This document shows positions 15,001 to 62,559 of a stretch of 64,000 nt of DNA, piece by piece. Source of the stretch: Mya arenaria (lineage: Eukaryota > Mollusca > Bivalvia > Myida > Myidae); NCBI RefSeq assembly GCF_026914265.1, contig NC_069123.1:32663678-32727677 (forward strand), written 5' to 3'. Made by a program: the position numbers and the translations under genes. The notes under the pieces were generated by a model, which did no database searches, was not told where the DNA came from, and worked only from the letters and a program-made list of their open reading frames with translations. Position 1 is the first letter of the stretch; every line of letters starts with the position of its first letter.

Positions 15001-16142
15001 ATTTGAAAATAGCATATGAAAATAAAATGCATACAATGGACAAATTCATGAATATTTTCATAGAACTTATAATGCGAACGTTTAAAAATCCTGCTCACAT
15101 CTTGTATCCGTGTTGCAACCATGGTGAGATTCCCTGTTTTTACCTGAATTTGTTCAGTTAGGCTCGCGTGTTGATACAATTATTATGTCTTTAATATCTA
15201 CTGTAATAAAAACAACCACTCAAATAAGATCAAATTACTGGCCTTATCATTTGAGAAACAAATGTCTTAATTATTATCTGACTATAATTAATATTGCGTA
15301 CTTGCATGTCAGGAAAATATAGTTGCGAGTGCATTGATTTTTTATATGATCTTTTGATGAATTGTGTAATTTTTCGTTGGTAACCCTTTTACTTATTAAT
15401 GCAAAAAATCTGACGTATTTTTAAACTATCTATTTATAATGAACTTCAGGCTAAATCATATTCATAATATTTGGGGTGACATTTTGTGCACTATAAATTT
15501 GTTGGTCTAGTGTTTGAAATTGAGTTGTTCGACGTTTCGCACGTTGCTGACGTCTGTCGCGCGCTTTAATACGCAACCAAAAGTACATACGTAACCTGAT
15601 GAAATAATATTAAATTAACACTCAATCTTATGAGTCTCACGTTTTATAGACACAAAAAGTCCTAGCAATATAATATAATATTTTGAAATGTTGCGTGCCA
15701 TTTTCAACGCTTATCATATCCTTTAAATTCGATCTATTTTACATACATGTATGATAATGTATATGATTATATCTTTATCGAGACTCTGTCATAAAAAATA
15801 TATGTACAGGTTTTCTGAAATATAAACACCACTATATGGAACAAGTTTACAATAAATTACCCTATTAAATTTATTATTGATTTTTAGTAGGAGGTAGTAG
15901 TTCTAAGTGGCTTCATGGGCCAAAAAATTGTTCATAGGTCCGTGATGGTTTAGGCAGGACTGAAAGATGTTATATGTAATATGCATCTTTTACTAAAGTT
16001 TCACTCTTTGTTACTGTATTAATTGTGTATGTCTGGAATATTTGGATCCCGGTTTTATCTTCACGATTATCGGATTACCAGTATTGTATCCGACATTTTG
16101 TATTTACGACATTGTCGATCCGGTGAGGCGACAATTTGCAAA
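12062..16142. other. Divergent intergenic region between CHCHD1 and METTL14
   Basis: About 4.1 kb separates the two start codons. It contains the polypurine tract listed separately, an imperfect direct repeat at about 13677-13800 (two CTCGTA-CATGC-CGACCAC blocks), a short (AT)n/(G)n run at 14841-14874, and otherwise AT-rich sequence. No TATA or CpG-rich promoter could be placed with confidence. An 88-codon plus-strand open frame at 12181-12447 resembles nothing I know. Confidence 0.6.
13200..13660. repeat. Polypurine/polypyrimidine tract (~460 bp)
   Basis: The plus strand is dominated by GA-rich words such as GAAGAAGGAAGATAGAGGAG and GAGAAACGGGGAGTGAGA, with few pyrimidines. The complementary strand therefore gives a Leu/Ser/Phe/Pro-rich open frame of no significance. 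Such tracts can adopt triplex structures and often mark regulatory or nucleosome-poor DNA; that is inference. Confidence 0.8.
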
Positions 16143-19100: not shown

Positions 19101-22100
19101 CCTAGCTCCATGCAAAAAGTCCACTTGGTTGTTTAACAGTTGTGATACCCTAGCTCCATGCAAATAGTCCACTTGGTTGTTTAACAGTTGTGATACCCTA
19201 GCTCCATGCAAAAAGTCCACTTGGTTGTTCAACAGTTGTGATACCCTAGCTCCATGCGAATAGTCCACTTGGTTGTTTAATGTACTCAATGTTAAGAACC
19301 AATACACACAGAGACATCTTTCCTGGGTTTAACCAGTACTGAGTACAGGACACCATTCCTGGGACTACCTTTTTAATGCCAAGTGCCAAGCAAGGAAGCT
19401 ACTGTTACCATATTTTAATTGTATGGCAGTGGCGTAGCTACATATAGGCCTTGTAGGCCTGGGCCTACAACTTTTTGGTAAAATGACAAAACTTAAATAA
19501 CCCGGAAATGCAATAAAAACTAATAGCTACTCAAACACTTTGAACGACTTAAAAGTTTGTTTTATTTTAACCAAAGCAAGCTTGGTGTTTATTTAAACTA
19601 CATGCAGGGTGCATTGCTTGATTTTATTGTGATCATTGCAAGTTTTATTAAGTGTGTGTAATGTGCATATAACAGTCCCCAACTCACATAGACTCATCGG
19701 GCCTACAAGTTTTTAAGGCCCTAGCTACGCCCCTGTATGGCACAGCCAAAGATTTAGCCCAAAATCTACCACACCTAAAGCGAGTGATTAACATTCAGCT
19801 ATTTGGGCAGTTTGGATGTTTGATTTTTTGGGGAAACATGTTATAGTAGACCAACATGTAATTATAGCGAACAGGAATTTAGGTTTGGATAAACCCTTAA
19901 ACTTGAATGTAAAAATATTTAAAACTACATGATTTACAATATTTGATTGTTGTATTTTATTTCCTGTTTTTTTTTTTCTTATTAAAAAACAAATGGTATT
20001 AACAACTTTGTGTTAGTTTCCTTATTATTTAAATATAAATTTGATTTTTCAGAAAAAAATATATTATTATTTTTTAATTATTCTGAACAAAACAGTAGAC
20101 TTTGTTCATTTAAGATCAAAACTGTTTATATCTGTAACATTTATTTAAAAGATTGGTTTCTCCTGTTTCAGTCAAGATTCCTCTGTAAAGAAAAAAGCTA
20201 AGAAGGAAGACTTACCTAGTGATGATGGCGCCTCTGGCTCTGGGGCGGTAAGTTGTCCAAGGTTCACTTAGTATCTGATAGAATTAGTATTGTTGCTGAT
20301 AAATATGAAATTCTGAACCAGAGGGCCTCAATCAGTTCTATGATTAAAGCTTTTAATTTAAAAGACTTAAGAAAAATAAATCTCAACTTTATATTTGACC
20401 TGTTAGATGGTGAAGTGATACTCGTATTTAAAATCATTACATACACATGTATAACAAACATTTTGAGTGATAAACCTTCAACTACTTACTGAATAAAGCA
20501 TTTATGGAATATATTAATAACTGATAACAAGATTGTAACCATACAGATGAAAACGCACATATATTAGATACTGCCGGGTCCTAAAAGATTGAAAGTGACC
20601 AACTATTGTCTCATATTGAAAGGTAGAAATACCGTTTTTTCTGCACCTTTCTTTGAAAATAAACAGGTTATCTTTCATAAGAACCATTGTTTTCAATATT
20701 TATTCATCCTTTTTGGTAAATTAAAACAATTGTATTATTTGTGGTACATCTTATTTGTGAGTAAGAGTGCATCTTTAAGTACATCTCTATAAACCATACA
20801 TTACCTTATCATACATGTATGTTATCATGGACATATCTACCAGGTTTATAGGTCTGTGATGATATCTAACGTTCATATTTTCATATGTGTACATTATCAT
20901 ACATGTGCATTATTATACTTGTTGCTGTATACTGGATATATATTTATGTTTTTACTTTTTTTTGCAGAAAAAGGAGCCTGAATTTGAAACAGAAGAAGTG
21001 TACACAGACTCAAGTGCTTTTTTAAAGGTAAATTCTTAAACTCACTGACAGTGAGTCACTGTTGTCAAATGTGTTTTTCATAAGCAGCCAATGATATTGG
21101 TAAACTGGGTAAAAATCCACTGATGTTTATCGAATAAAGGCATTCTCTCTTTTTGTGTTTTGCAGGGCACACAGAGTGCAAACCCACACAATGACTACTG
21201 TCAGCATTTTGTTGACACGGGGGAGCGGCCACAAAACTTTATCAGAGATGTTGGTAAGTTAATGAAGGCCTCTTTCAGTTAGTTATAATGGGTGTTTTTT
21301 GTTCTTTCTGTATATGCATGAACTGAGAAGGGGCAGGGGCATTGGGGATCTAAGAATAATTTATGAAAAACTTAGTTGTGAAAGGATGATTTATTGAAAA
21401 TTTAACTCTCAGTCAAACACATAGAATCGTTACAGACCTAATGTACAATGATATTTTAGTGCTTGTTATCTGAACTTCGGTAGTTCAAAAGCATTTATAG
21501 TTGTATGAGTTTTTTAAAACAACACTAAATTATTTTGGCAAAAGAAGTATCTTAAGTACATTATGATATGGTTAGTTACTGCTTTTTTTTAACAGGGAGG
21601 TTGTATTCAATCTCAATGGGTTTTTCTAATTAAATTGAAATCTGCAAAATCCACAAGAGTAGAATACGGTCGCCCAGTTTAAAACTATGTACTAATAAGC
21701 CTTTAATGGTATGTATTTCATGTAGAAAGTGGAAACATTGTTATTTACATTTTAATGACTACCTTGTTTGGTTTTTGACATTTTTCCACACACAATAGTA
21801 CTTGTTATGACATCAGCAGAGTGATTGACATTGTTGGAACACAGACAAATGCATCTTATGATTTGCGTTGCTTGCAGATGTATGGTGCATATAATTAACA
21901 ACGAAAGATAATGTTATAATGTATCGTTATGTCTAAGCTAAAATCTGTATCTTTTGTTTGAAATTTTCAGGTCTGGCAAATCGGTTTGAGGAATATCCCA
22001 AACTGCGGGAATTGATCAGATTGAAAGATGAACTTATTGCCCAAACAAGTATACCACCAACGTATGTGCTTACTCTAAAGTTTTAAAGTCAGCCTGAGAA

Positions 22101-25100
22101 ACCAGTATACCCCCTGGTACCACCCATGTTCTAATAAGGGTGTAGGAAGGCTTGGTTTCTGTGTATTATCTATAGGAAAAAAAATTGGTCTCCAACCCGA
22201 CCTTAATTTTTGGCACCTGAAGCAATGTTTTTGCATCTGATCCTTTTCTTTTGGGACAAAACTTTTACAAAGTTTATTGCACTGGAAAGACGCATACATG
22301 TACTGTTTTTATAGAGTACCGGTACTCTAAAATTTGTCTCAGTTTTTTGTGTGAAAATGATATACAGACACAGCTTGACATTAAATAGAATCCACAACCT
22401 ACAGACTTTATTTATTCATATAAGTGAAATAAAAACAACAACATATTTATCTTATGTTTGGTTTGAAATACTTTCATATACGTTTTATATAATACAGGTA
22501 TATGAAGTGTGATTTGGAGACATTTGAGCTGTCGGAGCTCCGCTGCCAGTTTGATGTAATTCTTCTGGAACCCCCACTTCACGAGTATCAACGTGCCCAG
22601 GGCATGGTGTTCGACAAATACTGGGATTGGGATGAGGTATAGTGTTTAAGAAAGGGAAAAAATGTTGATCGAGTATTATCGAAAATTGATTGTTTTGTAT
22701 TGAGGTCGTCATTAAATCATTTGCATAATGCCTGAATCATTTAAAGCTATGTGGCTGTATTTTTTAAAAACAGAAAAATATTTGTAGAACAGCAGTATAT
22801 TTTTTTTATATTTATCTAAAAAACTTAAGCTTATCAGTAAAAAATACTTCAAAATATTAAAAATACCGCAAAAGAATTTGCTTTCATTTATGTGAAGCTT
22901 TTAATTTTTTTCAACATTTTTATGAACTTTCCATTTTGATAAAATAATTGAAAATTGATGGAAATGGCTTGATTGATGATCGATTATGATATTGGACTGA
23001 TTTTCAATCCCTAGTACGAGACAATTTCTATGTTGTATGTACAAACGTATTATTACTCAACATAAGACTATACTTTCCAAACCTGTTTTTGGAGTACCAA
23101 ACACAGGGCAATGTGTTGATGACAGTTCATGAATAAGATACTAAGTTGCTGTATATACAGTATAGTGTAGCTTGCTCACAAAAATAACAAGAATTGAACA
23201 GTTATTTAAGGTAATAACAATCCTACTGATTCAAACATGATTCTCCTTTCTAAATTAAAAGCAACACTATCATTTAAGTCTTTTTAAGCTTGATCTTTCA
23301 ATATTGCACGCGAAAATTGGAATTTTTCATTCAATACCATTAAAAAACAAAGTTATGCCTTTAACAAATATAACAGTTTCTCTTTATTTTCCCAGATTGA
23401 GAAACTAGACATTCCCTCTGTGGCAGCCCAGCGATCGTTTATCTGGATTTGGTGTGGGAATGCAGAGGGGCTGGAAAGAGGCAGAAAGGTACAATGTAAT
23501 TTTAGCATGGCCCTTAGATAACACTAAATCAATATTTAATGGTCACTATTAAAATGTATAGTTACAGGGTTTTAGCAAGGTTTTAAAAAGGACAGGGTGC
23601 TGCAGAAAACTAAAAGGCTACACTGGACTTCAAAAAACTTACATATTGTAAACTTGGCAAAAAAACGTGAGAAATATTTTTAACTTTTAGGAGGTCTATG
23701 TTTTGAACAGCTGCCAGATATATTGAGTGTGTATATATTTATAATCATGAAATAAGCTTTTCAACAAAACATTTGAATTATTTGATTATCTAAAAAAATT
23801 CAATTCTAAAATGCAGAAGAGTGCACATGCTGGTGCCCATGAGGACAAAGGTTGCTACCAGAATAGGACAGGGTGTAGCATCCTCTGAAAGCTCATTAGT
23901 TAAAAGCATAAGATCTCTGACTGGGGATCAAATAATTAAAACTTTGAATATATTTTTTTTATCTAGACACAATAATAGCATATCTTTTTTATAATCACTC
24001 AAAACAGAAGTTTCTCATGACTTGGCATTTCTTTCAAACATTTCCATCAGACTTGAAAGCTTATACCATTTTTTGCTCGACTTTTCGAAGAATAAGGAGA
24101 GCTATACTACTCACCCTGGCGTCGGCGTTGGCTTCACACCTTGGTTAAGGTTTTGCATGTAAGCACCTTTAAGTCATTATCTCAGTAAATACATCAGTTA
24201 TTGCATTGAAACTTTGGATATGTATTCCCAACTATCTTACATGCTAAATTAATGAAGTTAGATAACAATTATTTGAATATAATGCAAATAAAAGGCCTTT
24301 ATTATTCGACTTAGAAATTCTGGTTAAGGTTTTGCGTGTAAGCACACATAGGTTAATATCTCAGCAACTACTTGAGGTATTGCATTGATACTTGATACAA
24401 TGGTACTCAACCCGCCAACCTACTAAATTAACCAAGTTAGATAACTCTAGTTTGCATTTAATGCAAATAATTGCCCTTTATTATTCAACTTAGAAATTCT
24501 GTTTAAGGTTTTGCATGTTACCACATTTAAGTCAATATCTCAGCAAATATATCATGTATTGCATTGAAACATTAGATATGTATTCCCAGATAACACTTTT
24601 TTGAATATAATGCAAATTATGGGCCTTTATTATTTGACTTAGAAATTCTGGTTAAGGTTTTGCATGTAAGCACACATAGGTTAATATCTCAGCAATTACT
24701 TGATGGATTGCATTGATACTTTATACAATGGTACTCAACCATCTACTTAAATAACCAAGTAAGATAACTCCAGTTTGCATTAAATTAAAATAATGGCCCC
24801 TTTTTTATTCGACATAGAAATTCTGGTTAAAGTTTTGCATGTAACCACTTTTAAGTCAATACCTCAGCGAATACGTCATGTAGTATATTGAAAAAATACA
24901 CACAGGCTCCCATCTATTTAACCTTCTTATTGAATCAAGTAAGATAACTCTTATTGAGACTTTATACAATGGTATTCAACCACCCAACTTAATTGAATAA
25001 CCAAGTTAGATAACTGTATTTTGCAAATAATGGCCCTTTATTATTAGACTTAGAAATTCTCGTTAATATTTTGCATGGAACCACATTTATGTTTATATCT

Positions 25101-27742
25101 CAGCACACCATGTATTGCATTGAAATCTAATCTAACAGTGATCCATGCATGTTTCGCCAAAACTTTTCAATCCTTACATTGAAAAGCGGCGGAATAGTCG
25201 AGCGCGCTGTCTCTGTGACAGCTCTTGTTTTATAATCACTCAAAACAGAAGTTTCCCATGACTTGGCATTTCTTTCAAACATTTCCATCAGACTTGAAAG
25301 CTTATACCATTTTTTAATGCGTACTATGTGGAATTAAAAAACATAACATTAAATCTAGAATGGCAATGTTGACTTTCTCAAAACTTTACGCTACAAAATA
25401 TTGAATTCACACAACAACAAAATAATTTTTAAAATCCTTATCAAACTTGGTTGTAATGCTTATTTACATACCATACTATTTTCACTGAATTTTATCAACA
25501 GCCAGATCACAGCCACATCATACCCTTTACTCAGGTTTAACAGCCCTTCACTTTTCAATTTTAACCATGTAGCATTCCTTACTCAATCATATTTTATCCA
25601 ACCATTACTAAACTTGATAGCAATGTTAATAGACAAACTTTATCCCTCAAGTTTCATATCCTGTCAAATTGCAACATTCACTTAGAGTATTAGACTTTAA
25701 TTTTCAAATTTAACCATCCATCTGAGGATAGATATGAAGAATTTGGTCCCATCTCCATTTGTATAGAATAATGTTTGGAGTAAATTTTTCAAATTTATCC
25801 TCAATTACATCAGTCCTAATCATAATCAATGACTGTTTAATCATTTCCAGTGCATTCCAAGCAGTCGACAAAGTAGATTTTTGTTTTATTTTCATATTTC
25901 TGTTCCATGTTGCAGTGTTTGAAGATGTGGGGATATCGTCGATGTGAGGACATCTGCTGGATCAAGACAAACATACAACGACCAGGGGACAACAAGAGCC
26001 TGGAGCCAGGGGCAGTACATCAAAGAACAAAGGTAGCTTTAAATATAGAGCTTTGAAACTGGGGGAAATGAAAACGTTAACAAGACTGCTTAGTATGTAA
26101 AACATCAATTTCTAGCTTTTGATTACTTCAACCACTCCTAGATGTGAAAATTTAATGAATCATTGTTTGTAGCTGAGGTTTTATTTTCTGGTATTCATTC
26201 GCATATTGCTTAGTCATAGTTTTCTCATATTAACGCCTAGATAAAAATCGCCCCTGTGATAGTTAAGAGCTACATGTCATTATGATAACATGTCGTGATT
26301 AACACAAAGAATAAAAAATGAATTAGACTTGGAAACAAAAGGGTCACACTAAATTATATTAGCTTTATTATGTAAGGTTTATGTAGGAAAGATATTAATA
26401 ATAGATATTAATCATGAATTAATAACTGCAGAAATGTGATTTGTCTGAAGATTTCCACAAATCTAATTTCACTAAGATAAAAAATAAATCATTTACCGGT
26501 AATAAAAACAACAAAAAAACCTTAAAAACCAGTAAGCTTCAACCCCTTTGACCCCCACTGATGGCCTCAAGCGCCCCCAGAACTCATCACCAGAAATGGT
26601 CAAAGCCTTCGGCTGTCAGATCAATCACATCCCTGTGATGGAAAATGGTCAAAGTCATATCTAATGGAACGATAATGAAAGTGGACCATTAGGGCTCAGT
26701 TTCAATAAATCAAAAGGCTTACAATTGTACAATTACAGACAGAGTCTCGATTTCGGTGTAGCAGAATACTGAATTTCAATGAAAATATTGTAAGGTCATT
26801 TATGGCATAGATTCTGTCCGTATAAAGGTGTACCCAAACCCTTAAAAGCAGCGGTTTACGACCAAGATATCTTGTTGAAACAGGCGCCAGGCAATTCTCG
26901 GTTGTTACATGATTGAACATTTATATGAAAAACTACAGAAGCAAGTCCAGTAGTCAAAAGATTAAACATAAACTCCTATCAATGGCACTAAGGGAATACT
27001 GAGCCAGAAATACTGAACAACAACATACACATTCACAAGCCAGAATTGATGGATAGTGATAAAGGGTGGTGTGTAGGTAGCTTATGTGTTTATTAAGGAT
27101 TGTTGGGTATCGCCTTTGGACGGTCAGTGAAATGCAATTTTACTGGGGTTGTAAACTAGTTTATGTGCTCAACCTCACCTCACACTTGTATATTTTCTTT
27201 TAAAGGAGCATTGTCTGATGGGCATCAAGGGAACTGTCAAGCGGAGTACAGATGGTGATTTCATCCATGCCAACGTTGACATTGACCTTATCATAGAGGA
27301 AGAGCCGGAATACGGCAGCAAAGAAAAGCCGGTCGAGATATTTCACATGATCGAGCATTTTTGTCTAGGTCGTCGAAGGCTTCACCTCTTTGGCAGAGAC
27401 AGCACAATCAGACCAGGATGGCTTAGTCTCGGGGATGAGTTGACAAGCAGTAATTATGATCGGGAGAATTATATGAATTACTTCAAAACGGAGGCCGATA
27501 AGACTACAGGGTGTTCGGAAGAGATTGAAAGACTGAGGCCAAAATCTCCAGTATCAAAGAATAAGCAGATGGGTGGACCCCAGCGGGGAGGTAGAGGGGG
27601 TAGGGGAGGACCACAAAGGGGTGGGGCCATGGGAGGGGCCCAGGGCAGAGGGGGGCGTGGCATGGGGGTCAATAGGGGAGGCCCAGGGAGAGGAGGCATG
27701 AGAGGAATGGGGAGGGGACCACCAAGGGGTAACTTCAGATAG
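16143..27742 (+). CDS. METTL14: METTL14, N6-adenosine methyltransferase non-catalytic subunit (ten exons)
   Basis: Exons: 16143-16208, 18398-18474, 20172-20247, 20968-21027, 21166-21253, 21971-22061, 22498-22636, 23396-23488, 25916-26032, 27206-27742 (TAG). All are GT-AG and in frame, giving 447 aa against 456 in human. METTL14 pairs with METTL3 in the nucleus; it does not catalyse but binds RNA and supports m6A methylation. Visible marks: N-terminal helix [19 protein letters not shown], then an acidic/lysine linker, then [20 protein letters not shown] (from residue 92) and the methyltransferase fold. EPPL (residues 177-180) replaces the catalytic DPPW of METTL3. [15 protein letters not shown] and [19 protein letters not shown] follow, then an Arg-Gly-Gly tail (about residues 388-447) used for RNA binding in the family. 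An upstream in-frame ATG near 16029 would add residues not seen in the family, so 16143 is preferred. A poly(A) signal lies at 27883. Confidence 0.97.
16667..17316 (-). mobile_element. TAGTC-family MITE, copy B (METTL14 intron 1)
   Basis: This is copy A in reverse orientation: it starts TAGTCTAAAATAATAGACG and ends CGTACAATTATTTGGACTA. The 10-bp direct repeat GGCTGTAATG flanks it exactly (16657-16666 and 17317-17326). Similarity to copy A is very high throughout. Confidence 0.88.
18545..19285. repeat. 48-bp minisatellite, about 15 units, METTL14 intron 2
   Basis: Units such as GTTGTGATACCCTAGCTCCA followed by TGCAAAAAGTCCACTTGG and TTGTTTAACG repeat every 48 bp (for example 18851 and 18899). 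The array starts about 70 bp after the exon 2 donor. Because 48 is a multiple of three, one minus-strand frame reads a 16-residue period through the array; this is not evidence of coding. Left-hand units are more diverged. Confidence 0.93.
19427..19735. mobile_element. Small TIR transposon (CAGTGGCGTAGCTA type)
   Basis: Left end CAGTGGCGTAGCTAC; right end CTAGCTACGCCCCTG, an inverted pair with one mismatch plus a subterminal inverted GGCCT-GTAGGCC/GGGCCTACAAG. Direct repeat TATGG lies on both sides (19422-19426, 19736-19740). About 309 bp, no coding capacity. The element sits in METTL14 intron 2. Superfamily not assigned. Confidence 0.8.
20395..20785 (+). mobile_element. CACTCTTA-family dispersed element, copy 1
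   Basis: Intronic sequence matching, in the same orientation, 56880-57253 and 58275-58640. Shared words include AATAACTGATAACAAGATTG, CATAAGAACCATTGTTTTCA and TTATTCATCCTTTTTGGTAA. It ends AGTAAGAGTGCATCTTTAA. In the best copies the left edge AAGTGACACTCTTA is inverted relative to this right edge, so the family appears to be a MITE. The left edge is eroded here. Confidence 0.7.
23565..23900. mobile_element. Dispersed element with GGACAGGGTGCTG edge
   Basis: The left edge AGGGTTTTAGCAAGGTTTTA followed by AAAAGGACAGGGTGCTG is also seen at 8715-8760 and, inverted, at 36120-36180 and near 36450. The right part at 23865-23880 carries another GGACAGGGTG. It is relevant because it looks like the source of the 21-bp minisatellite unit in CHCHD1. 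Boundaries are approximate. Confidence 0.5.
24075..25227 (+). mobile_element. HINE-like element flanked by 88-bp direct repeats (METTL14 intron 8)
   Basis: The interior has five or six ~170-190 bp tandem monomers built on GGTTAAGGTTTTGCATGTAA and ATATCTCAGCAA. The left edge has GCTCGACTTTTCGAAGAATA; the right edge has AATAGTCGAGC and then a stem-loop (GCTGTC/GACAGC) followed by TCTTGT. The flanks at 23987-24074 and 25228-25315 are an 88-bp direct repeat with one visible mismatch. No coding capacity. Confidence 0.75.
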
Positions 27743-35600: not shown

Positions 35601-38600
35601 CTAAATTCAACTTTTTGAGGGCCCCGGTCCCATTCCCCAAAGGCAGCCTTGTTACATACATCAAACACTGTGTCCCCAAGTGCCTTGGAGACAGCTGTAT
35701 TCAGTCGAGGCCCTTCTGGGTTGAGGCTGTACTTGATACGTCGACCCTGTCCCAACACTGCCTGCAGAACACCGGCTGCAAGAGCCTCCTGGCTGCCCAG
35801 TCTGAAATGTACGAGAGGGGCTAGTTTAAAATATACAATAACAGCAATCAAAATAAGACTTATGGATGAACAAGCCACAGTTACACCAGGGCTGGGCATC
35901 AATGCTACAAGCTAAACCAGTTTAAAATATACAATAACAGCAATCAAAATAAGACTTATGGATGAACAAGCCACAGTTACACCAGGGCTGGGCATCAATG
36001 CTACAAGCTAAACCAGTGCAAATCATGATCACTGCAATATATACAATAATAATTTTATTTGGTAGCTTTCCATTTAGTGTCTACCCATCTTTTTTTTGCT
36101 ACAATTCCTAATGAAAAAGAGTTATGGAAGGGTGCTGCACACTGTCCTTTTTTTAAAACATGCTTCTGCCCTAACGGTGCCCTGCATGGCACCTTCAAAC
36201 TGCAGAACCGTCATAGAATTAAAAGCTAAAGACAGTCAAATATATAACTTCAATTAAACATGATTCCTAGATTTTCTGCCATTTTTATGATGCTCAAGAC
36301 AGTAACTGTCAAGGGGTGAATGCGAAAAGGTTCTAAGTGACATTAATTAAAGAAGCAGACAGAACCTTTTCGCTTTCAACCCAACTTAGTTCTTCACAGC
36401 TCAATACAATGTGCCCTTTTCTTCTTAGCCCCTGTACCTCTTTTACAGCACCCTGTCTTTTTTAAAACCTGGCTTAAACCCTATGTACATGTATATGCAG
36501 CCTTAGGAACCAAATTATCCCTCATTTATCGATGTATTAGTTCCACTTACTTGGGTCCTTCAGTTGCCACGGCGACATATGTTGCATCTAGGTCTGGCTT
36601 TTCCTCCCTGGCTTCTCCTGTAACCATGGAAACCAATCTCATTATTTTGATATAATCAATACATTGAAGATACAGTCAAACCTGGTTGAACGGTCACCTG
36701 CTTTAAATGGCCACCTGCCTTAACGGGCCACTCCAAATTCCCCCCGTACGTTTTTACTATATAATGTACGTGCATTAACCGGCCAACTGTCTAACGCGGC
36801 CACGGCCACTAATTTTTGTCCCCATGAAGCCATATAATCACTAATTAGCAGCCACTAATCCCTTGTCACTGACACCTCCGCTGATATATTTGTCCGATAC
36901 ACAGCTTTAATTGCGAATAGAAGTTTACGGAAAAGAACGACGGCCTCGGGTATTTCCGTCATCCAATGAAAATGAATATTGCATCACACGATTGTCATGC
37001 GTGTTTACTCATCGAGAAATAATGTTTATTACATGTCGGCGAATGTTTTGATCAGAATTGACACAATTAATGACACAATTAATACGATAATTAAATAATA
37101 AAGAAGTTTATTATTAAATACCGACAAAAAAACGGTCATTTTAAATTCACAGTTTGCATTGTCATTCGACGGCGTGAAACGAGTTACGATTTTTCTATAT
37201 TATTTTTCAAAGTGCACGGATTTATATTTCTACGAACGAATAGTCACAATGCATTGTTCTTAATATTTTTTTAACTTTGATTATGGCTGAATTTTTTTTT
37301 ATCGAAAGTGTTTGACTCTAAAAGAACTTGTCGAGTGAATAAAGTTATTAAAAAACGGCCGTAGTGGAAAAAGTTTTACCAAGGAATTTAACTGTGGACG
37401 GACTGAAATCAATGGAAATCCTAACACAAAAAGACAGAGGAAATTACAAGAAATGTGTATGCACATGTAGTTATGTAAATGTGTAGACTGATATGTGGTG
37501 TCAGTGTGTTTTATTTATGCTATGCATCAACATTTATTTAATGTACGGACTACTTTAAAAAGTGAACTCAAAAATGTGTATGTACATGTAATTGTGTAAT
37601 TGATATGTGGTGTGTTTTGTTTATGCCTTGTATCAAAATTTATCTTATGTATTTTATTTATAAATTTGAAATAAAGTTATCTTATCTATACAAATGTATT
37701 TGTATTTGACCTTCTTCAATAATATTGATACAGATGTTATTGATTAAGGTGTGAGGTGGTGGTCAAGATACATAATCCATCTCTGAATAAAGCTAATGTG
37801 GCGGAAATGTCAAACCTGGATTAAGTGGCCACCTGTCTTAAGCAGCCACTTTGATCATTTCCCAAGGGTGGCCACTTAATACAGGTTTGACTGTATGTGT
37901 AACTATGAAATTACATGATAAATGCAGATCAAGTTGAGATACAACCTTAATATACAAGGATATTAATTATTCAGATGGAAGACAAAAGAACTGCAAATAC
38001 TATATACAGTTACTTTCATAAATTTGAAGTATCCGATTCAGTTGAAATATTGGATAGTTTCTTCCAAATAATACAAACAGTAGAACCCAAAATAAGAACA
38101 CATTATTCATCACCAGCATTGTACTGGCAGCAATAGCCATACTGGCGGCTGGCTAAATAAAGGATTCTAGTCATAAATTAAATTAGGGCTATTCCAGGAA
38201 TAGCCCTTACCTTAAATCAGTGTATACCGGAATAGCCCTTACCTTAAATCAGTGTATACCGGAATAGCCCTTACCTTAAATCAGTGTATACCGGAATAGC
38301 CCTTACCTTAAATCAGTGTATACCGGAATAGCCCTTACCTTAAATCAGTGTATACCGGAATAGCCCTTACCTTAAATCAGTGTATACCGGAATAGCCCTT
38401 ACCTTAAATCAGTGTATACCGGAATAGCCCTTACCTTAAATCAGTGTATACCGGAATAGCCCTTACCTTAAATCAGTGTATACGTCACAGATTATATTTA
38501 TTTCCTCAACTTTGTGTTAATTTTTTTTTTCAATGTTGACTTCAATTTTCACAAATATGTTGCAAAATGAAACTATGGGACTAAGATAATTTCAATTTAC

Positions 38601-50300: not shown

Positions 50301-53300
50301 GGTCTCTTCTGTTCTCAACAACAAGAAACGATGACATCATATTGTTTGCTTATGTCATATTTCTATTTTAGTATGAGACCTGTCTCCTTGTCGATGTTTG
50401 AATAGTGTAAAATGTTTCAAATTCTTGGGATAATCACATGAAACGAAAACTCAATGGAGGTTGATTTTTTGAGGATATTGTTTAGTTTGTTATTGTGGGT
50501 TTTGAGGGGGTGAGGATAGTGCTTGAAGTTTTAATTCTGTGTTCTTGAATAAATTATTTTGATGAGTCGATTTTCTGTGCCAGTTTGTACCATTTCCCAA
50601 ATGTGGATGTTGCTTTGAATAAATTCTTAAAATGGCTCGATCTCTGTGCCTATATTTACCATTTACCAAACGTGTTTTCAGACACAGCTAGAGCAACTGT
50701 TAAACCAGACAATTTGTAGCCATCTTGGTCCGGTGGCATCAGTGGTGAGTATACCAGCTCGGATAGTCCATATCCTAAAAATGTACTACACAAAAAATAT
50801 ATGCTTACATGTATATGCCATTAATGATGATAGCGATTTAATTTAAAAATACAGATGTAATTTTGTAATGTAATTAACATTAATAGGTGACACCTAATGA
50901 TTTTGATGTCAAAATGTTAAAGATCAAGGTCGTAGTGACCTGTGACTCATTTAAATTGGATTTTGATTTAAGTACATGTATAATAAAGTAGGTTCAGCAG
51001 AAAGGCGACACATCCAATTCGCAAATCACGTTATTCTAGTTTCAAAATTGTTAAATCTTTTTTAGATAATTATTAATAAAAAGCAAAATAGAAAAAGAGA
51101 AGAACTTGTGGTATATATCTAAAGTTCAGTGAAATAACTGAACCCAAACATTCTGACATGTCTGCTTTTGTTTCAGTGCATGGACCTGTTACATCAGTAC
51201 CTCCCCATGGGTCTACAGATTCTCGCTAGCCAGATCGTATGTAGTTTATGTACACTTTTGAAGTTAAATGTATGCCAAAGCTGATTTTTGTTCTTTCGAC
51301 ATCCTTTTTACTATCACCATGAACACAAATTGTAGAAAAAATATGTCTCAGTCTATGAAATTAATGCATTTAATTGAATTAGTCTCATGCCAATGTGATA
51401 TTACTACTGTCCACTGACTGAAGTACGATACTTGATTTTCGTTGCTTGAATTATATGATTTTTAAAAAGGATGTTCCACTGTTAAGGTCATCCATACATC
51501 ATTTTAAAGTTACATAAATGTTAAGTTTGAATGTAAGATTTCACCGCAAGCTTTTTTTTTTATATAGGAATCATGTTATTTAAGATAAAATTGCTATAGA
51601 ATCATTGTAAAATTTTGTCTTATTATCTCCCTTTAATATATCATATTATAATTTTATAATATAATAGTACCATCATTATGGTGTTATTCAAAAATATTAT
51701 CCATCCAAAACTAATATAATGGTTAATCAATATAAATAAAACATAATAATAATAATATCGCTGTTAATTTTTCTAAAATGCACTCATTGTTGCATGATAG
51801 ATGATTTAACTTAAATCAAATGGAAATATTGAAGTATTTTTTTTTTGTCCTCAGGATCCAGACATTACCTGTCGAGTCTTCGGATTCTGTTTTTCAAGTG
51901 GCCAACACGTGCCCGTCATTTACATCAAGAACGTTTTCATGGGCAGGGTAAGTACTTGGTGAATGATATCAAAATTGAACCTCGGGGAGGTGAAGTGTTA
52001 ACCTAAATTAGAATTTGGATCAACATGACTAATAGACTTAAACAATTGTAAAAAGCTCGTCTATAATTGACTTTAAAAATAGTAAAAAGCTTGTTCATGT
52101 AAGTGTAAGTTTTTGTAAGCCCATTAAGCATTTTGGGCTTTTGCGAACTTGTGTACTGTAACTTTCGACTATTTAGCAGGGCATGTGGTCAAATTCATCC
52201 TGATTAAGGTTCATGTTAGCTTTGATAAAGATTCAATCTTATATTTCAAAATAAGTGGTAGGGTTCAATTTCAAGTGAGAGTGATAAAGTGGTATATGGG
52301 TCTGCCTGCCTCTCATCCCAGAAGGTTGGCCTAAGAAAGGACTCTAGTACTGGATTTTACTCCCTTAGAACTGATGGAAGAGTGATGCACATCAGCTGTC
52401 TTCGCAATTTGGCTATTAACAAATATGAATTCACTTAAACTATTTTCTTAAAATTTCCTCAATGTGAATTAAATCTATACTCTTTGATAAAAAAGTAACT
52501 TAAATTAGCGGTCAGATTTATTTCCTGGTCTGTCAAAACAGTTTAAATTTTTTCTTCCTTGTTTCAGTACAAGATGTTAATGATATAACCTTGGGATGTA
52601 ATGTTTATGTTTTAAAGCGACTTGACACCAGATGGTCCAAAAGTTTGCTAATTCAGTATTTCCTCAAATAAGCCTACACTTAATATCAATACAAACTAGG
52701 ATGCTTAAAGAATATTTTGTCTTCTTCCCAGATGAGTTAAACATTTAAAAATAGAGCATAATGGTTTCCGAGTTTATAGTGTGTGTATTTAACATTTGAA
52801 AGTCATGTGATTAGTGCAGATACATATACCGTCACCATTTCTAAATTTGCTGGGATTTACACACAAACGCAGTTAATTTCGAGTTGGAAAAATACGCAAA
52901 AACTTCGAAAGATGCATGTGTTGTATGTGATGTGATACATCAGTAAGTAAGATTGAATGCGTTGTACACAAAGATGTCACTGTTATATAAGTTTTTTACA
53001 TTTTTCTTTTTTCTTGCAATGGTATCATCTAGTGTCTAGTCCCTTTGAATAGGATGTGAATCATTCAATTATCTTTGAAGTGCACTTGTTTTTTACAAGG
53101 AAATATATTTTATTAGTTTCAGTTTTGTAATTATTATTATGCCTGTTTATTGTTTATTGAACAATGTTTTTTAACAAGAATGTTAAGGTATTGTTATAGC
53201 GTTAAAGATTCCATCAGCAGTAGTTTGACATCATGCATTGTTAAAGAAAGATGATTCACATAAAAAGACATGGCAAATGTCAATGTTCAGTGAGTTATCC

Positions 53301-56300
53301 TTTAGATCAAATGGGGAAATGTGGCATCTACTTGCATTGCTATTGTCATAGTAAACATGATCAATGAGGACTGGGATATTTGTTGAAATACATATGTATA
53401 ATTCAGGGTCTGTTGTAGGCTGAAAAGTGTGATATTTATAGTCATATTTTTTGTGATTTTTATGGCCCTTCAAATACTGAAAATTGTAATATTTAAATGC
53501 TTGTAGGGCTGTTTAAGGACAGAAAAGTGTGATAGTTATACTCCTGTTGTTATGATATTTTATAGCCCTTCAAGTGTTGTACTTATTCTGCCACTTTTTA
53601 AGGGCTATTTGAACACTGGAAAGTGTGATAGTTACATTCTGATTATAGTGTACATTATGGTCCTGTGAAGATAAAAAAAAGTGATACATGCATTCATTAA
53701 ATCTTGTTTCAAATTGCTTGTAGGATCATTTGGAGTACGAAATTGATAATGTCAGGGGAAAGAGAAGTGTGATATTTATACATTCACTGTTGTATATTTC
53801 ATTGCCCGCAGAAGAGTAAGGAGTGTGATATCTATATTTCCCCAGTTGTATATTTCATGGCCCGCAGAAGAGTGAGGACTGTGATATTTATACTTTCACT
53901 GTTGTATATTTTATAGCCCGCAGAAGAGTGAGGAGTGTGATATTTATACTTCCTCTGTTGTATATATCATGGCCCCTTGAAGAGTAAGGAGTGTGATATT
54001 TATACTTCCTCTGTTATATATTTCAGGGCTCCATGAAGAGTGAGGAGTGTGATATTTATACTTCCTCTGTTGTATATATCATGGCCCCTTGAAGAGTAAG
54101 GAGTGTGATATTTATACTTCCTCTGTTGTATATATCATGGCCCCTTGAAGAGTAAGGAGTGTGATATTTATACTTCCTCTGTTGTATATTTCAGGGCTCC
54201 ATGAAGAGTGAGGAGTGTGATATTTATACTTCCTCTGTTGTATATATCATGGCCCCTTGAAGAGTAAGGAGTGTGATATTTATACTTCCTCTGTTGTATA
54301 TTTCAAGGCCGCCATAAGATTGAGGAGTGTGATATTTATACTTCCTCTGTTGTATATTTCAGGGCCCCATGAAGAGTGAGGAGTGTGATATTTATACTTC
54401 CTCTGTTGTATATATCATGGCCCCTTGAAGAGTAAGGAGTGTGATATTTATACTTGCTCTGTTGTTTATTTCAAGGCCGCCATAAGATTGAGGAGTGTGA
54501 TATTTATACTTGCTCTGTTGTATATTTCAGGGCCCCATGAAGAGTGAGGAGTGTGATATTTATACTTCCTCTGTTGTATATTTCAGGGCCCCATAAAGAG
54601 TGAGGAGTGTGATATTTATACTTCCTCTGTTGTATATTTCAGGGCTCCATGAAGAGTGAGGAGTGTGATATTTATACTTACAAAGTTGTATATTTCAGGG
54701 CCCCCATGAACAGTGAGGAGTGTGATATTTATACTTACAAAGTTGTATATTTCAGGGCCCCCATGAACAGTGAGGAGTGTGATATTTATACTTCCTCTGT
54801 TGTATAATTCAGGGCCCCTTGAAGAGTAAGGAGTGTGATATTTATACTTACAAAGTTTTATATTTCAGGGCCTCATAAGATTGAGGAGTGTGATATTTAT
54901 ACTTCTGCTGTTGTATATTTCAGGGCCCCATGAAGAGTGAGGAGTGTGATATTTATACTTACAAAGTTGTATATTTCAGGGCCCCCATGAAGAGTGAGGA
55001 GTGTGATATTTATACTTCCTCTAATGTATAATTCAGAGCCCCTTGAAGAGTAAGGAGTGTGATATTTATACTTACAAAGTTTTATATTTCAGGGCCTCAT
55101 AAGATTGAGGAGTGTGATATTTATACTTCTGCTGTTGTATATTTCAGGGCCCCATGAAGAGTGAGGAGTGTGATATTTATACTTCCGCTGTTGTATATTT
55201 CAGGGCCCCATGAAGAGTGAGGAGTGTGATATTTATACTTCCGCTGTTGTATATTTCAGGGCCCCATGAAGAGTGAGGAGTGTGATATTTATACTTCCGC
55301 TGTTGTATATTTCAGGGCCCCCATGAAGAGTGAGGAGTGTGATATTTATACTTCCACTGTTGTATATTTCAGGGCCCCATGAAGAGTGAGGAGTGTGATA
55401 TTTGCAAAGATCTTGTCACAGAGATTGACAATGCCATTAAGGATTCAACAACTCAGGTACTATGCCATCCAGTCGTAAAACAATAGGTGTTTTCTTGGTT
55501 TCAACACTGTCTTATCCAAGGGTTCTAAAGTTCCGGATTGAACCTGAAATCAGGATTGAGATCTTTAAACTTTAGACTATTGTGTTGTAAATATTGTTTT
55601 ATACATGGACACTTGCATCAATAAACAGTATGAAGGACCTTGAAATGAATATAAATGATTTCGGAAACAATTTTGAAAGGGGTCTAAGCCCCTTTAACCT
55701 GCTAAGGGCATGAATCCCTCATACAAAGATCCCTAACCATTTTTCAGGATTGACTTTTATTAGCTGTTAGAACCCCTGTTAATATTTATCTGAATGAGAC
55801 TTATCTGATATGCTTTTCAAAAGATGGCATTGTTTCCATATTTACTTTACAAAGATTTAGTCAACAAGCGCAAACATTTACAATACATATGTTATTTCTT
55901 CTGTAGGCCAAGGTGAAGGAGATTTTGGAGAATCAGGTGTGCCCAGAATTGGGTTCATTGCAGGATTCTGTAAGTACTGAAACATTTCATACCTGGATCT
56001 TTTCAATATATCAACACGTTGATGCAATAATGCAATTTCTGCTTCTATCTATTTATGGACTTATTGAGTTATTGCTCTAAGGTGTAGTTATATCTTCTGC
56101 AGTTTCATGGATTAAAGCTGCACTCTCACAGATATACTCTTTTTACAACTTTTTTTATTTTTTGTCTTGGAAAGAGCAAATTTGTGCGTAAATATCTGCA
56201 AACCAATGATAAAATATTGCTGTCAAAAGATCAGATGGGAGATTTTCATATTTCCGTTCGATAATTTATGTGTTATGGCTTAAACAGTTACTAACGCTTT

Positions 56301-59300: not shown

Positions 59301-62300
59301 AAATTTCATGCCCACGAATATAAAATTAATGATTTCACAGTATCACTAATCAGTGAGAAATCCCCTTTTAAATAATACCAAAATTATACATGGAAGTGAA
59401 AAAATGTGTTGTTTTTTTTCTAATTTGAATAATAAGAAAACTGAGAATAATTTTATACCAAAAATATGTAAAAAAGCAGAAACATGTTAAAATAATAAGG
59501 CATATGAATAAATTTGATGACATATAGATGATATTAAATATAGAGGTTTTAAAAATATTCAGAGATATAAAGAAAATCCCCAAGTTAAAAATTTTCACGA
59601 AGAAGCTTTATGAATACTGCTCCATACGTAAACATTTAAGATTAATACCGATGAGAAATTGAAGTGATAAGCTTAGTTGTACATCAGTTATTTTAATGCT
59701 GCACTCTCACAAATTGACAGTTTTGACATTTGTTTAGCATTTGTATCAGAATCATCTGATTTTGGTATCAATGTTTTCAATACAGCAATATATATGATAA
59801 CTCGCAATAGAACAGACACAATTGTTTGGAAACTGCTGAAAATATCATTTTTCTTAAAGCGCTAGTAATGCTTTTAGTCAAAAACAATGTAAATATAAAA
59901 AACTGCGATCTGACAGCAGTCTGGTATCATCGGTTTAAAGACATTTATGCCAAAAATGGCTCATTCCAAGACAAAAATAAAAATAAAAAGTTGTCAGAAT
60001 GGTCAATCTGTGAGAGTGCAGCTTTAACTGATAAAAAACAGGCGAGTGTTTGAATATATCCTGTGCCTCACTTGTATAACTTTCCATCTTCCCTAACCTC
60101 TTTAGTTGCTTTCTCTCCAGTAAAACACATATAATTATAAGCCGCTTGTTCAGACTTTTTTTTAAGTTAACAACGTGATTAATGACATCGTTGTTAACTT
60201 TTAAAAAGTAAAATATTTAATGACATTCTCGCATATTTAAATATAAACTAAAACAGCTGAAACAGTTGTCACAAATCTTGTTTGACATCCAGCAGATAGC
60301 AAGTGTATCCATTTAACTTACAGCGCAGTAACGACTTGAAAGTTAACAACAATGATTAACAATGTTAACTTTAAAATTGTTCTCAACAATCGACCCAATG
60401 TTATACAAATGTCACAGTATTTCCAAGGCTTAAACCCAGTATTTTTACTCCATCTAATATTTTCTTATCAAACAGGAAGAGATTAAGTCTCTTATAGATG
60501 ACGTATGTAAAAAGCTGATGACAAAAGATCTTCAGGACCAGTGCAGTTCTTTTGTGGATGAGTATCTAGAACTGGTTCTAAGCCTTCTCGCCAAGGAGCT
60601 CGATCCTGTTGCTGTCTGCCAGGAAATAAAGCTGTGTTCTAAAACACTTCTTGATGGTAAGAACTTCCAATGTTTAAAGGGGTAAGACACGAGGGGCCAT
60701 ATTCAATATACAACTTAGATCAATCTTAAATTTAAGAGTGAAATCTAAGCTTTTTGATTGGACTGTAAAATAAATTGATCAGTCAACTGAATGGAATCAC
60801 TGAGGCATGTCTAAGGATAAGGATAAGAACTATATTGAATACCACCCCCGGCCCCAATATAATGAAAATACTTAAGTCAAATCTCAAACTCAATCTCAAC
60901 TCATTTTACCATATAATACAAACTTTATTAAAAACAAAAATATGTTGTTACAATTTTTTAAAAACCATCCTTTCATTGAATATGTTGATCAAAACCTTTG
61001 GTCTAGATTCCAATTGAAAACTTTTTTTATAGCCAAAAATGTACTTGAGTTCAATTCTTTGCCTTTTAACAATTACTTATGTATATTTTTTTGCTCTAGA
61101 ATAAGATTTCTTTGCAAAATGTCAAGGGATTTAAGCTAGCATGGCATTTCATTGATGTAAGCTAGCAGTTAGCAACTGGATGTCAGAGTTGTAAGCTAGC
61201 AGTTAGCAACCATATGGCATTTTTGAAAATTGTCAAAATCTTTCAATAACACATTCTCTGAGAAAATAGGTATACAAAAAGTATGAAAACATGCAATGTT
61301 TTGAATAATAGATGCTTGTATGTGGTAAAATGAGTTGAGATTGAGTTTTAGATTTGACTTAAGTATTTTCGTGATATTGGGGCAAGATAGCACCATTGCA
61401 ACAAAAAAAGAAAATTGTCAAAAACTTACATAAAACTGATATCATTGTGTACTTCTGATGTATCACATCGCTTAAGACACATGCATCTTTCGCAGTTTTT
61501 GCACATTTTTCCAAATCAAAATTTACTACAGTTGTCTACCACGTAAATCCCAGTAAATTTAAAAATAGTGTCGGTATATTTATCTGTACTCATAAACAGA
61601 TATGATTTAAACTCAGAATTCTTTATGCGCTGTTTTAAACGGGGAAACACAGATGAGACAGCAACATGATTGTTGCGTTTATTATTTTAGTCATGTAAAG
61701 TGACTTATTATCGGCCTCCTGGTAGCTCACATTGACAATTCTGGGCTTGTTTTGAGGAAATAATGAATTTGCCAAATTTTTGGACCAACTGGTGTCTAGC
61801 CCCTTAAAAGCACATATTTTTCAATTTCATATTAAGAATAATGTTTCTCCCAGCAAAAATGTCAACCAATTGTGTCATTGTAAAAAAGAAAGTAATACTC
61901 AACTTCAGGCTTTCAATGTTTGTCAGGGGATTTTAGCTAGCATAGCATTTCATTGATGTAAGCTAGCAGTTAGCAACTGGATGTCAGAGTTGTAAGCTAG
62001 CAGTTAGTAACTGTATTTCATCATTGTAAGCTAGCAGATAGCAACCATATGGCATTTCTGCAAACTAGCAGCTAGCAACCGTATGCCAGTGTTGTAAGCT
62101 AACCATAATAAAAGATATCTCATTCTTGTATGCTAGCAGTTAGAAACTGGATGCCATTGTGGTAAATGAGCAGCTATGGTATTGTTGTAAGCTAGCAATT
62201 AACTGATGCATGTCATTGTCCTTGAATTGACCAGCAGTCTATTGAAATGACTTGTATGTAAAAATTATGTATTTTTCCAGTCGATATTCAAGCAAAACCA

Positions 62301-62378
62301 CTGAAGGCAGGAGATGGATGTGACATCTGCATCATTGTAGTGCAACGGCTGGAACAACTTCTGGCCAATGCTTCTCAG
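44393..62378 (+). CDS. PSAP: Prosaposin (fourteen exons, 3' end beyond the window)
   Basis: Exons: 44393-44429, 47615-47778, 48008-48085, 48532-48657, 49702-49905, 50682-50744, 51177-51236, 51855-51947, 55373-55456, 55907-55969, 56648-56707, 57787-57975, 60476-60656, 62281-62378. All junctions keep frame, giving 500 codons without a stop. The product is a secreted/lysosomal precursor cleaved into saposins that help hydrolases degrade sphingolipids. Order: signal peptide MNVVVLLAFIGYVAGDA; SapA domain (residues 24-58, CVWGPTYWCSHVSHARQCGA); saposin-B domains at about 73-147, 183-256, 283-356 and 387-461, each with the six-cysteine pattern; a fifth begins at 481 (GCDIC) and is cut by the edge. 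N-glycosylation sequons NTT, NQT, NKT and NAS are present. Exons 1 (12 codons) and the exon after 14 are the least certain. Introns 8 and 14 contain amplified splice-site sequence. Confidence 0.95.
44630..45390 (+). mobile_element. tRNA-like SINE, copy 1, interrupted by a MITE
   Basis: Reading across the insertion at 44710-45256 gives GTAAGAACCAGCC, then CTCAGTTTGTTGTGGCAGAG with CACCGTGCTAGTG, then CTCTAGTGGACAGGATTCAAGCCC. These match a tRNA A box (TGGCAGAGCACC) and B box (GGATTCAAGCCC). The same order of words is found uninterrupted in copy 2. Boundaries approximate. Confidence 0.62.
44710..45256 (-). mobile_element. TAGTC-family MITE, copy C
   Basis: Starts TAGTCTAAAATAATAGACGT and ends CGTACAATGATTTGGACTA. 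The 10-bp repeat CGTGCTAGTG is present at 44700-44709 and 45257-45266. It is shorter (547 bp) and more diverged than copies A and B, with the same orientation as B. It is inserted in the SINE described above. Confidence 0.87.
45390..45500 (+). mobile_element. tRNA-like SINE, copy 2
   Basis: GAGTAAGAACCAGCCGCCCA, then CTGTTGGTTAGAGCGCCATG and ATCATGGCTTCGAGCCTCCC give A-box (TGGTTAGAGCGCC) and B-box (GGCTTCGAGCC) like elements. It does not fold into a full tRNA, so it is called a SINE rather than a tRNA gene. The 3' extent is unclear. Confidence 0.6.
45500..47390. other. Prosaposin intron 1, little recognised
   Basis: AT-rich intron. Around 47134-47220 there is a partial reverse copy of the CACTCTTA family (AAAGATGCACTCTTACTCCC then AATAAGCTGTACCACAAT). 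A short tandem duplication AAATTAAAATGTGCCAGTAT lies at about 46532-46575. Confidence 0.55.
48358..48396. repeat. (CA)n microsatellite
   Basis: Interrupted CA dinucleotide run in prosaposin intron 3. Confidence 0.85.
48842..48992 (-). mobile_element. Small inverted-end element (ATTCAATA family), copy 1
   Basis: Shares, in inverted orientation, CTTATCCTTATCCTTAGACA, TGCCTCAATGATTCCATTCA and CTTAAATTTAAG with the block at 60697-60842. Ends carry TTTCAATATTGATC and TATTGAATACAG, an inverted pair. Possibly a 150-bp MITE. Confidence 0.6.
49985..50160. mobile_element. Small TIR element (CAGTCTGACCCCGTTGGCT type)
   Basis: Left end CAGTCTGACCCCGTTGGCTG, right end GTTCGAGTCAACGGGGTTAA followed by ACTG, an imperfect inverted pair enclosing 176 bp. 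It starts 80 bp after exon 5. Termini resemble pogo/Tigger-type MITEs; no target duplication is clear. Confidence 0.62.
53420..55372 (+). repeat. 56-bp minisatellite built from the exon 9 acceptor region (prosaposin intron 8)
   Basis: From about 53780 the unit is TATATTTCAG|GGCCCCATGA, AGAGTGAGGAGTGTGATATT and TATACTTCCTCTGTTG, repeated every 56 bp (for example 55201 and 55257), about 28 times. More decayed units run back to about 53420. The last unit is the real acceptor and exon 9 (starting 55373), with which copies share about 31 exonic bases (GGCCCCATGAAGAGTGAGGA through GTGTGATATTT) plus the AG-ending intron tail. Beyond that the exon reads GCAAAGATC while the repeat reads ATACTTCC. Unit variants (CCTCTG, CCGCTG, ACAAAG) are interspersed. 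Confidence 0.95.
56113..56474. mobile_element. GCTGCACTCTCACA-family MITE, intact copy
   Basis: Perfect inverted ends of 21 bp (TAAAGCTGCACTCTCACAGA on the left, its complement on the right). Length 362 bp. Lies in prosaposin intron 10. Other copies are at 33395-34530 (interrupted) and 59693-60027. Confidence 0.88.
56880..57253 (+). mobile_element. CACTCTTA-family element, copy 2
   Basis: Left end AAAGTGACACTCTTATTCAA; right end GGGAGTAAAAGTGCATCTTT. Same internal order as copies at 20395 and 58275. About 370 bp in prosaposin intron 11. Confidence 0.75.
58027..58118. mobile_element. Palindromic hairpin element (CGACTATAAGACGGG)
   Basis: TATTTTCTCGACTATAAGAC followed by GGGG, then about 40 bp, then CCCGTCTTATAAGCGAGTCG with ATAAAATA. 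The arms are inverted copies of each other, so the whole ~90 bp could fold into one hairpin. Lies 55 bp after exon 12. Confidence 0.75.
58275..58640 (+). mobile_element. CACTCTTA-family element, copy 3
   Basis: Left end AAAGTGACACTCTTATTTAA; right end GGAGTAAGAGTGGATCTTAA. Close to copies 1 and 2 throughout. In prosaposin intron 12. Confidence 0.75.
59693..60027. mobile_element. GCTGCACTCTCACA-family MITE, copy 3
   Basis: Left end TTAATGCTGCACTCTCACAA; right end CAATCTGTGAGAGTGCAGCT followed by TTAA. Contains the family words CTTAAAGCGCTAGTAATGCT and GATCTGACAGCAGTC. In prosaposin intron 12. Confidence 0.82.
60697..60842 (+). mobile_element. Small inverted-end element (ATTCAATA family), copy 2
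   Basis: GGCCATATTCAATATACAAC on the left and AGAACTATATTGAATACC on the right are inverted. The inner sequence matches 48842-48992 in reverse. Confidence 0.62.
60850..61385. repeat. Inverted repeat pair (~75-bp arms) in prosaposin intron 13
   Basis: The left arm at about 60853-60925 (ATGAAAATACTTAAGTCAAA then CTCAATCTCAACTCATTTTA) is inverted at about 61320-61382 (TAAAATGAGTTGAGATTGAG then TTGACTTAAGTATTTTCGTG). The loop is about 400 bp. It looks like the ends of a small transposon. Confidence 0.65.
61130..62200. repeat. Scattered GTAAGCTAGCAGTTAGCAAC repeats, prosaposin intron 13
   Basis: Units of about 37-40 bp read TTGTAAGCTAGCAGTTAGCA with ACTGGATGTC or ACCATATGGC. They cluster at 61130-61225 and 61933-62200. 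A GTAAGC donor-like word occurs in most units. Confidence 0.75.
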
Positions 62379-62540
62379 GTAAGCAATTTATGATCTCAGG
62401 TAAGCAGTCAATTTCTCAGGTAAGCAGTCAAAGTTTTGCAGGTTAGCAGTCAATGTGTCTCAGGTAAGCAGTCAAAATTTCTCAGGTAAGCAGTTAATGT
62501 TCTAAGGTAAGCAGCCAATGTTCTAAGGTAAGCAGTGAAT
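62379..62540 (+). repeat. ~21-bp tandem array of the exon 14 donor site
   Basis: The true donor CTTCTCAG|GTAAGCA (GT at 62379) is followed by seven more GT sites at 62400, 62420, 62442, 62464, 62486, 62507 and 62528, spaced 20-22 bp. Each sits in TTTCTCAGGTAAGCAGTCAA or a close variant (GCAGGTTAGC, CTAAGGTAAGC). The unit includes the last six exonic bases. Reading on from exon 14 meets an in-frame TGA at 62391-62393. Confidence 0.93.
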
Positions 62541-62559
62541 TTCTTATGTATTCTGTTTT

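Follow-up and report, generated by a model that had tools for sequence, protein, structure and literature searches.

An exon-boundary minisatellite at a 3′ splice site of a prosaposin-related gene in Mya arenaria, probably tolerated without a role in splicing

How does an intron come to end in a long series of copies of its own 3′ splice site, each of them carrying the beginning of the following exon, and does such a series have anything to do with splicing? The question is raised by an intron of the soft-shell clam Mya arenaria located in the window, i.e. the whole 64,000-bp stretch of DNA that was analysed (+ strand of contig C2, positions 32663678-32727677; the genome has 18 contigs totalling 1.216 Gb).

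Saposin domains are encoded by exons at 47.6-62.4 kb of the window which, judging by strand, order and phase, would belong to one gene. The joined translation of these exons showed 22-28% identity to prosaposin-type proteins of birds and fish in 30 of the 30 matches listed (7992 best candidates scored), and the host gene is, as far as its predicted protein tells, a relative of prosaposin. No annotated protein containing the part of the gene with the array was found in the protein searches, which had limits on candidate length and in two cases took in the best 7992 or 7993 candidates, and a SAP-like protein of Mya arenaria (P0034) gave near-identity matches only to exons downstream of the window. 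The parts of the gene that matter here are the following:

51855..51947, + strand: exon preceding the acceptor array (DPDITCRVFGFC...FMGR), delimited by its AG and GT boundaries and the saposin reading frame, with a phase 0 end before GTAAGT

51948..55372, + strand: host intron of the acceptor array, 3425 bp

55373..55456, + strand: true saposin exon (GPMKSEECDICKDLVTEIDNAIKDSTTQ), placed by frame and homology, with in-frame joins to its two neighbouring exons; the array has its last repeat in the first 31 bases of this exon

62281..62378, + strand: later saposin exon of the same gene (..GDGCDICIIVVQRLEQLLANASQ), with its donor in phase 0

The reading frame is continuous across the junctions 51947/55373 and 55456/55907. 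Because of frame and homology the acceptor at 55373 is presumed to be the authentic one, kept as the unit that adjoins the intact exon, and 55373 and the donor at 62379 would be the only sites of the two arrays described below that are used in splicing.

The acceptor array itself consists of these elements:

53762..55387, + strand: main part of the acceptor array, with 29 units (55-57 bp) that combine about 25 bp from the end of the intron with 31 bp from the start of the exon

53366..53761, + strand: decayed old units, recognised by local alignment to the unit consensus and present as the same pieces in a second copy of the locus; the last piece (53618-53761) is weakly supported

54772..55218, + strand: higher-order doubling within the array, in which units −11, −10 and −9, counted from the exon, reappear 224 bp further on as −7, −6 and −5, with two of the three pairs identical in the unit table

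The preliminary description of this DNA had proposed a minisatellite at the 3′ splice site, starting at 53420 and made of about 28 clear 56-bp units plus older decayed ones, with a unit derived from the intron end and about 31 bases of exon 9 and with the real exon as the last unit. The array is confirmed as real, with some corrections. TRF reported it at 53762-55403 with a period of 56, 29.3 copies and 89% matches, and manual cutting gave 29 units (lengths 55, 56 and 57) at 53762-55387; the last partial unit is the start of the exon and holds 55373, as proposed. Clear and decayed units are both present, but the decayed part reaches further out than 53420, to 53366. Compared with 300 shuffles, alignment of its pieces to the unit consensus gave z values of 4.5 (53366-53421), 9.2 (53422-53521), 8.5 (53522-53617) and 3.5 (53618-53761), the last of these being weak as its score of 20.0 is below that of the best shuffle (21.0). 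No traces of the array were found in 53000-53365 by local alignment to the consensus (z −0.6).

The exonic bases common to the exon and several units number 31 (GGCCCCATGAAGAGTGAGGAGTGTGATATTT), and a 48-mer spanning the junction, when aligned to its own intron, scored 46 (z 26.8), the best of 60 shuffles reaching 14.5. The derivation from this exon, putatively number 9, was thus borne out, and the possibility that the units share no exonic bases with it is removed by the 31 found on alignment. The repeat boundary falls between the cysteines of the saposin CxxC motif, with the first inside the repeat and the second outside; since the repeat ends at this point, the exon is the source and the direction of copying is from exon to array.

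Among the 28 units upstream of the one with the true AG, 18 have TTCAG, two have TTCAAG, which places the AG one base later, and eight lack an AG in this position, though one of them, unit −27, has one two bases further on. The statement that each copy keeps TATATTTCAG/GG (the slash marks the splice junction) therefore does not hold. All eight AG-less units of the window are among its 12 outermost units, and all three of the second copy are among its five outermost; AG loss toward the outer units is as expected of unconstrained decay. Use of an upstream copy was also said to add 56n bases, which is not always so given the 55- and 57-bp units, and to meet a stop, which is what was found at all upstream sites tested. 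Read in the frame of the preceding exon, 20 of 20 upstream acceptors of the window reach a stop (the twentieth stop-bound site being the acceptor at 55037), the off-place AGs at 53917 and 55039 likewise reach one, and in the second copy the same is true of 15 of 15 upstream acceptors tested (14 array sites and one from the decayed part). Such an outcome is expected without selection because a 56-bp unit has stops in several frames, which are hard to avoid.

In the second copy, four upstream acceptors share the whole range from −54 to +31 with the true one. Local signals therefore cannot discriminate between them, and position or exon sequence beyond +31 must, which makes the locus a natural test of the choice among identical splice sites. 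Of the 22 upstream AGs compared in the window, none matches the true one over this range, and nine have no more than two mismatches over −40 to +31.

A mirror image of the acceptor array, absent from the preliminary description, is found after the later saposin exon of the same gene:

62379..62544, + strand: donor array, in which the true donor TCTCAG/GTAAGC is followed by seven more donor-like copies at 20-22-bp spacing (edge scan score 23, z 8.1)

Four of the seven extra donors keep TCTCAG/GTAAGC, one reads TGCAG/GTTAGC and two read CTAAG/GTAAGC. Any extra donor, if used, gives the reading GTA AGC AAT TTA TGA with its in-frame stop, and all seven lead to a stop in each of the two copies of the locus. 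The number of units in the donor array is equal in both copies, and over the exon and donor array together the two copies differ at 2 of 263 aligned bases, with 3 gap columns.

The second copy is located at 29.98-30.04 Mb of C2 on the minus strand, 2.7 Mb away and inverted. It is colinear, with interruptions, to 22654-64000 of the window, i.e. up to the right end, with aligned blocks 93-99% identical, and a saposin match further out is likewise present as a matching pair. The coding parts differ at 7 of ~1418 bases (4 differences synonymous and 3 not, with some exon edges approximate), and the divergence amounts to 4.3% in the host intron upstream of the array and 2.9% in the next intron. It may represent an inverted duplication or, alternatively, the other haplotype retained in the assembly. 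In genome searches, the 14 rows listed for the acceptor end all fell at the two loci, and the two places listed for the donor stretch were itself and the second copy, neither listing being proof of rarity.

The acceptor array of the second copy has 18 units versus 29 in the window, which agrees with the suggestion that the array is a source of intron length polymorphism. Units −1 to −3 are identical between the copies and the outermost pair differs at one base, and the inner units are copy-specific, for example a run of four CCACT units without differences, peculiar to the second copy, and the 224-bp doubling of the window. Turnover confined to the exon side was considered and rejected, since the changes lie inside the array and leave the three units nearest the exon identical between the copies. 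The exon beside the array has the same length in both.

Within the unit, a core lying across the unit joint (GGAGTGTGATATTTATACTT) varies less than the rest, with 6 of 20 columns variable versus 26 of 37 elsewhere (p 0.005, the core having been picked after viewing the alignment). A piece of it, AGTGTGATATTTATA, is kept in the decayed units at 11 of 15 positions (53366), 15 of 15 (53422), 14 of 15 (53522) and 13 of 15 (53618), these units having been found with the core itself. The lower variability could reflect constraint, which would count against a neutral reading. Together with the next two bases the core can form a hairpin of nine pairs. The energy of the single hairpin is ordinary (78 of 400 shuffles were as stable), that of the doubled unit is less so (matched by 6 of 400 shuffles), and folding of 55219-55456 gave a z of −2.77. 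RNA structure as the selector of the splice site was rejected because the accessibility of the G in the AG is as low in the true site as in the decoys (an unpaired probability of 0.00-0.09 in seven acceptors of the window and 0.01-0.02 in eight of the second copy). That the core hairpin helps slippage is a guess.

It is quite reasonable to suggest, and we consider it probable, that the acceptor array belongs to the exon-boundary minisatellites known as ‘mirages’, and that it is neutral and tolerated, with no job in splicing. An original tandem duplication would have covered ~25 bp at the end of the intron and 31 bp at the start of the saposin exon. The copies then multiplied, as we infer, by unequal exchange or slippage, and did so on the intron side because no damage can be allowed to the copy that continues into the remainder of the exon. 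The array would be tolerated because the splicing machinery picks the innermost site, the one with the whole exon and a donor behind it. Under exon definition the innermost site is taken, which guards against an acceptor array before an exon and a donor array after it. The donor array would obey the same rule, and the two arrays in one gene both predict the innermost site, a choice demanded by exon definition and not by intron definition. Upstream acceptor use, if there is any, would yield transcripts with early stops. The tolerated decoy array already proposed for this locus is thus the favoured reading, and the tunable splicing buffer proposed beside it is left without a supporting finding.

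A role in splicing could nevertheless be imagined, in which part of the transcripts is spliced to upstream acceptors or downstream donors and, having early stops, undergoes nonsense-mediated decay, so that array length tunes the amount of the saposin precursor. The stops behind all tested upstream acceptors and all extra donors in both copies, the many upstream acceptors identical or near-identical to the true one, and the less variable core would all fit, but the stops need no selection in a unit of this composition, the difference in unit number between the copies gives no sign of a set length, eight of the 28 upstream units are without the AG, and the lancelet mirages discussed below are reported not to interfere with splicing, all of which makes this role unlikely. 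A more elaborate version, in which both arrays divert a steady share of transcripts to decoys to be destroyed, the mutable length sets saposin dosage and varies among clams, and the less variable core, with its hairpin across the unit joint (a structure not fully available to the true exon), makes the decoys rank lower than the true site, appears quite improbable. Tandem arrays are prone to assembly error, and an array made by collapsed or stuttered reads has to be weighed as well, the more so as the second copy may represent a second haplotype retained there. Such an artefact is hardly credible in view of two separately placed copies with different unit numbers and shared old units, and of units differing in an ordered way that includes the 224-bp doubling, although the unit count may still be inexact.

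The two junction arrays in one gene might also suggest that splice sites are the preferred birthplaces of minisatellites in this genome, in which case such arrays would be common and have a mechanistic cause. In a scan of 39 exon edges (20 acceptor and 19 donor edges of 18 saposin and two METTL14-like exons, the tested place being approximate at eight edges without AG or GT), a copy of the junction was sought in the neighbouring 2 kb; two edges proved to be repeated (z 26.8 and 8.1), and the other 37 stayed at z 1.6 or below. Minisatellites, taken as arrays with a period of 10-100 bp and three or more copies, account for 10% of the window and, in a 180-kb sample drawn from 18 places, for 7.8%. 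At a coverage of ~8-10%, about 3-4 of the 39 edges are therefore expected to be repeated if arrays are blind to exons, and the two observed are no more than chance. Genome-wide, donor triplets (CAGGTAAG) gave 1256 matches versus 451 for the motif read backwards, an excess in favour of preferred birthplaces, but matches inside one array are not independent, and no clear excess is left when distinct places are counted among the matches listed, from C1 to C4:73.3 Mb: 22 versus 13 backwards, or 18 versus 12 with look-alike pairs merged (a manual count in which the donor array described above is among the 18). At four of the 17 other places (picked by eye, 451 bp each) there is no evident exon before the first donor, the upstream array edge lying outside the stretch in L036 and perhaps in L037. 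There is accordingly no good evidence, in this small sample, for splice sites as special seeds of minisatellites, and we regard this explanation as very improbable. Among the matches listed there are three other look-alike array pairs, each on one chromosome, which may mean haplotypes left in the assembly.

Mirages have been described in lancelets (Branchiostoma) in Adh3, the globins BflGb6 and BflGb9, TnC and PGBD5 (PMC3087553, PMC3902484), with the last two added by PMC3902484. According to the parts of these papers drawn on here, the BflGb6 mirage reported by Ebner and co-workers repeats the intron end and the exon start, with 6 and 3 units in two haplotypes (PMC3087553). Either exon edge can be repeated, the length differs between haplotypes, and the mirages seem not to interfere with splicing, as indicated by Adh3 data and globin RT-PCR (PMC3087553); somatic instability has been reported for the Adh3 mirage.

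The clam arrays resemble those of lancelets, as far as the latter are described in these parts, in being minisatellite-like tandem duplications of an intron-exon boundary, in which many copies keep the AG or GT. The length differs between haplotypes there and between two copies here, which may be alleles or paralogs, and in both cases the inner units are homogenised but the boundary units are not. The acceptor array thus shows four mirage features, namely a unit spanning the boundary, the authentic junction kept beside the exon (by frame), a copy-number difference, and concerted evolution sparing the boundary units, and the donor array, with its equal number in both copies, shows the first two. 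The differences lie in the mollusc host, in the 29 units compared with 6 and 3 in the BflGb6 haplotypes, and in unit length, which is 56 bp and 20-22 bp here versus 150-160 and 157 bp in the globins, 10-72 bp in Adh3, and 60 and 108 bp in PGBD5. The clam gene has an acceptor and a donor array; contact of the repeats with 5′ and 3′ splice sites is mentioned for PGBD5 as well. Lancelet splicing is reported to be undisturbed, and that of the clam gene would be so on the reading favoured here.

Internal tandem repeats at exon-intron boundaries have also been described in human segmental-duplication genes (PMC2812944). As far as that description was drawn on, these too are minisatellite expansions at the boundary, with units of ~30 bp, which can change gene structure; the changes are seen between paralogs, with 4 repeats on average and some making new introns, whereas the clam exon has the same length in both copies. 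The tandem duplication of an AG/GT proto-splice site was proposed as a route of intron gain (Rogers 1989, as cited in PMC3087553 and PMC2812944). The clam locus shares with this model, in its cited form, a splice site duplicated in tandem as a possible start of a new intron, but no strong donor was seen by eye beside the acceptor in the unit, and therefore no new intron is expected.

No mollusc precedent for junction arrays was recognised among the papers listed in searches of the open literature, part of which named molluscs, bivalves or Mya, and one may have been reported elsewhere; in two papers on mollusc gene structure (PMC3862624, PMC4732748) the text on tandem repeats and splice sites describes no such arrays. 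If the mirage reading holds, mirages are no lancelet oddity and can arise where minisatellites are common.

Several other repeats were observed in the window and elsewhere. At 38197-38483 there are nine perfect 32-bp repeats with AAG/GTAAGG on the minus strand, of which one unit is left in the second copy; the array, which was outside the edge scan, was rejected as a junction array as it lies away from any visible exon end. The exons near it resemble UQCRC2. A 30-bp array that begins at 78990 of the extended sequence, 44 bp past an exon with whose end it has a few bases in common, was also rejected (edge scan z 0.3). The + strand exons at 16023-27742 are those that we take to resemble METTL14; a 48-bp minisatellite begins ~90 bp after the one at 18473, and this array, at 18561, was likewise rejected as a junction array with an edge scan z of −1.2. 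At 8747-9824 a 21-bp unit is present in 51 copies, with frames open throughout the array on both strands; the array is at most putatively coding. At a further place (L031, 7220-9115), a 68-bp unit, which resembles the 3′ part of a tRNA-derived element, is repeated in 28 copies.
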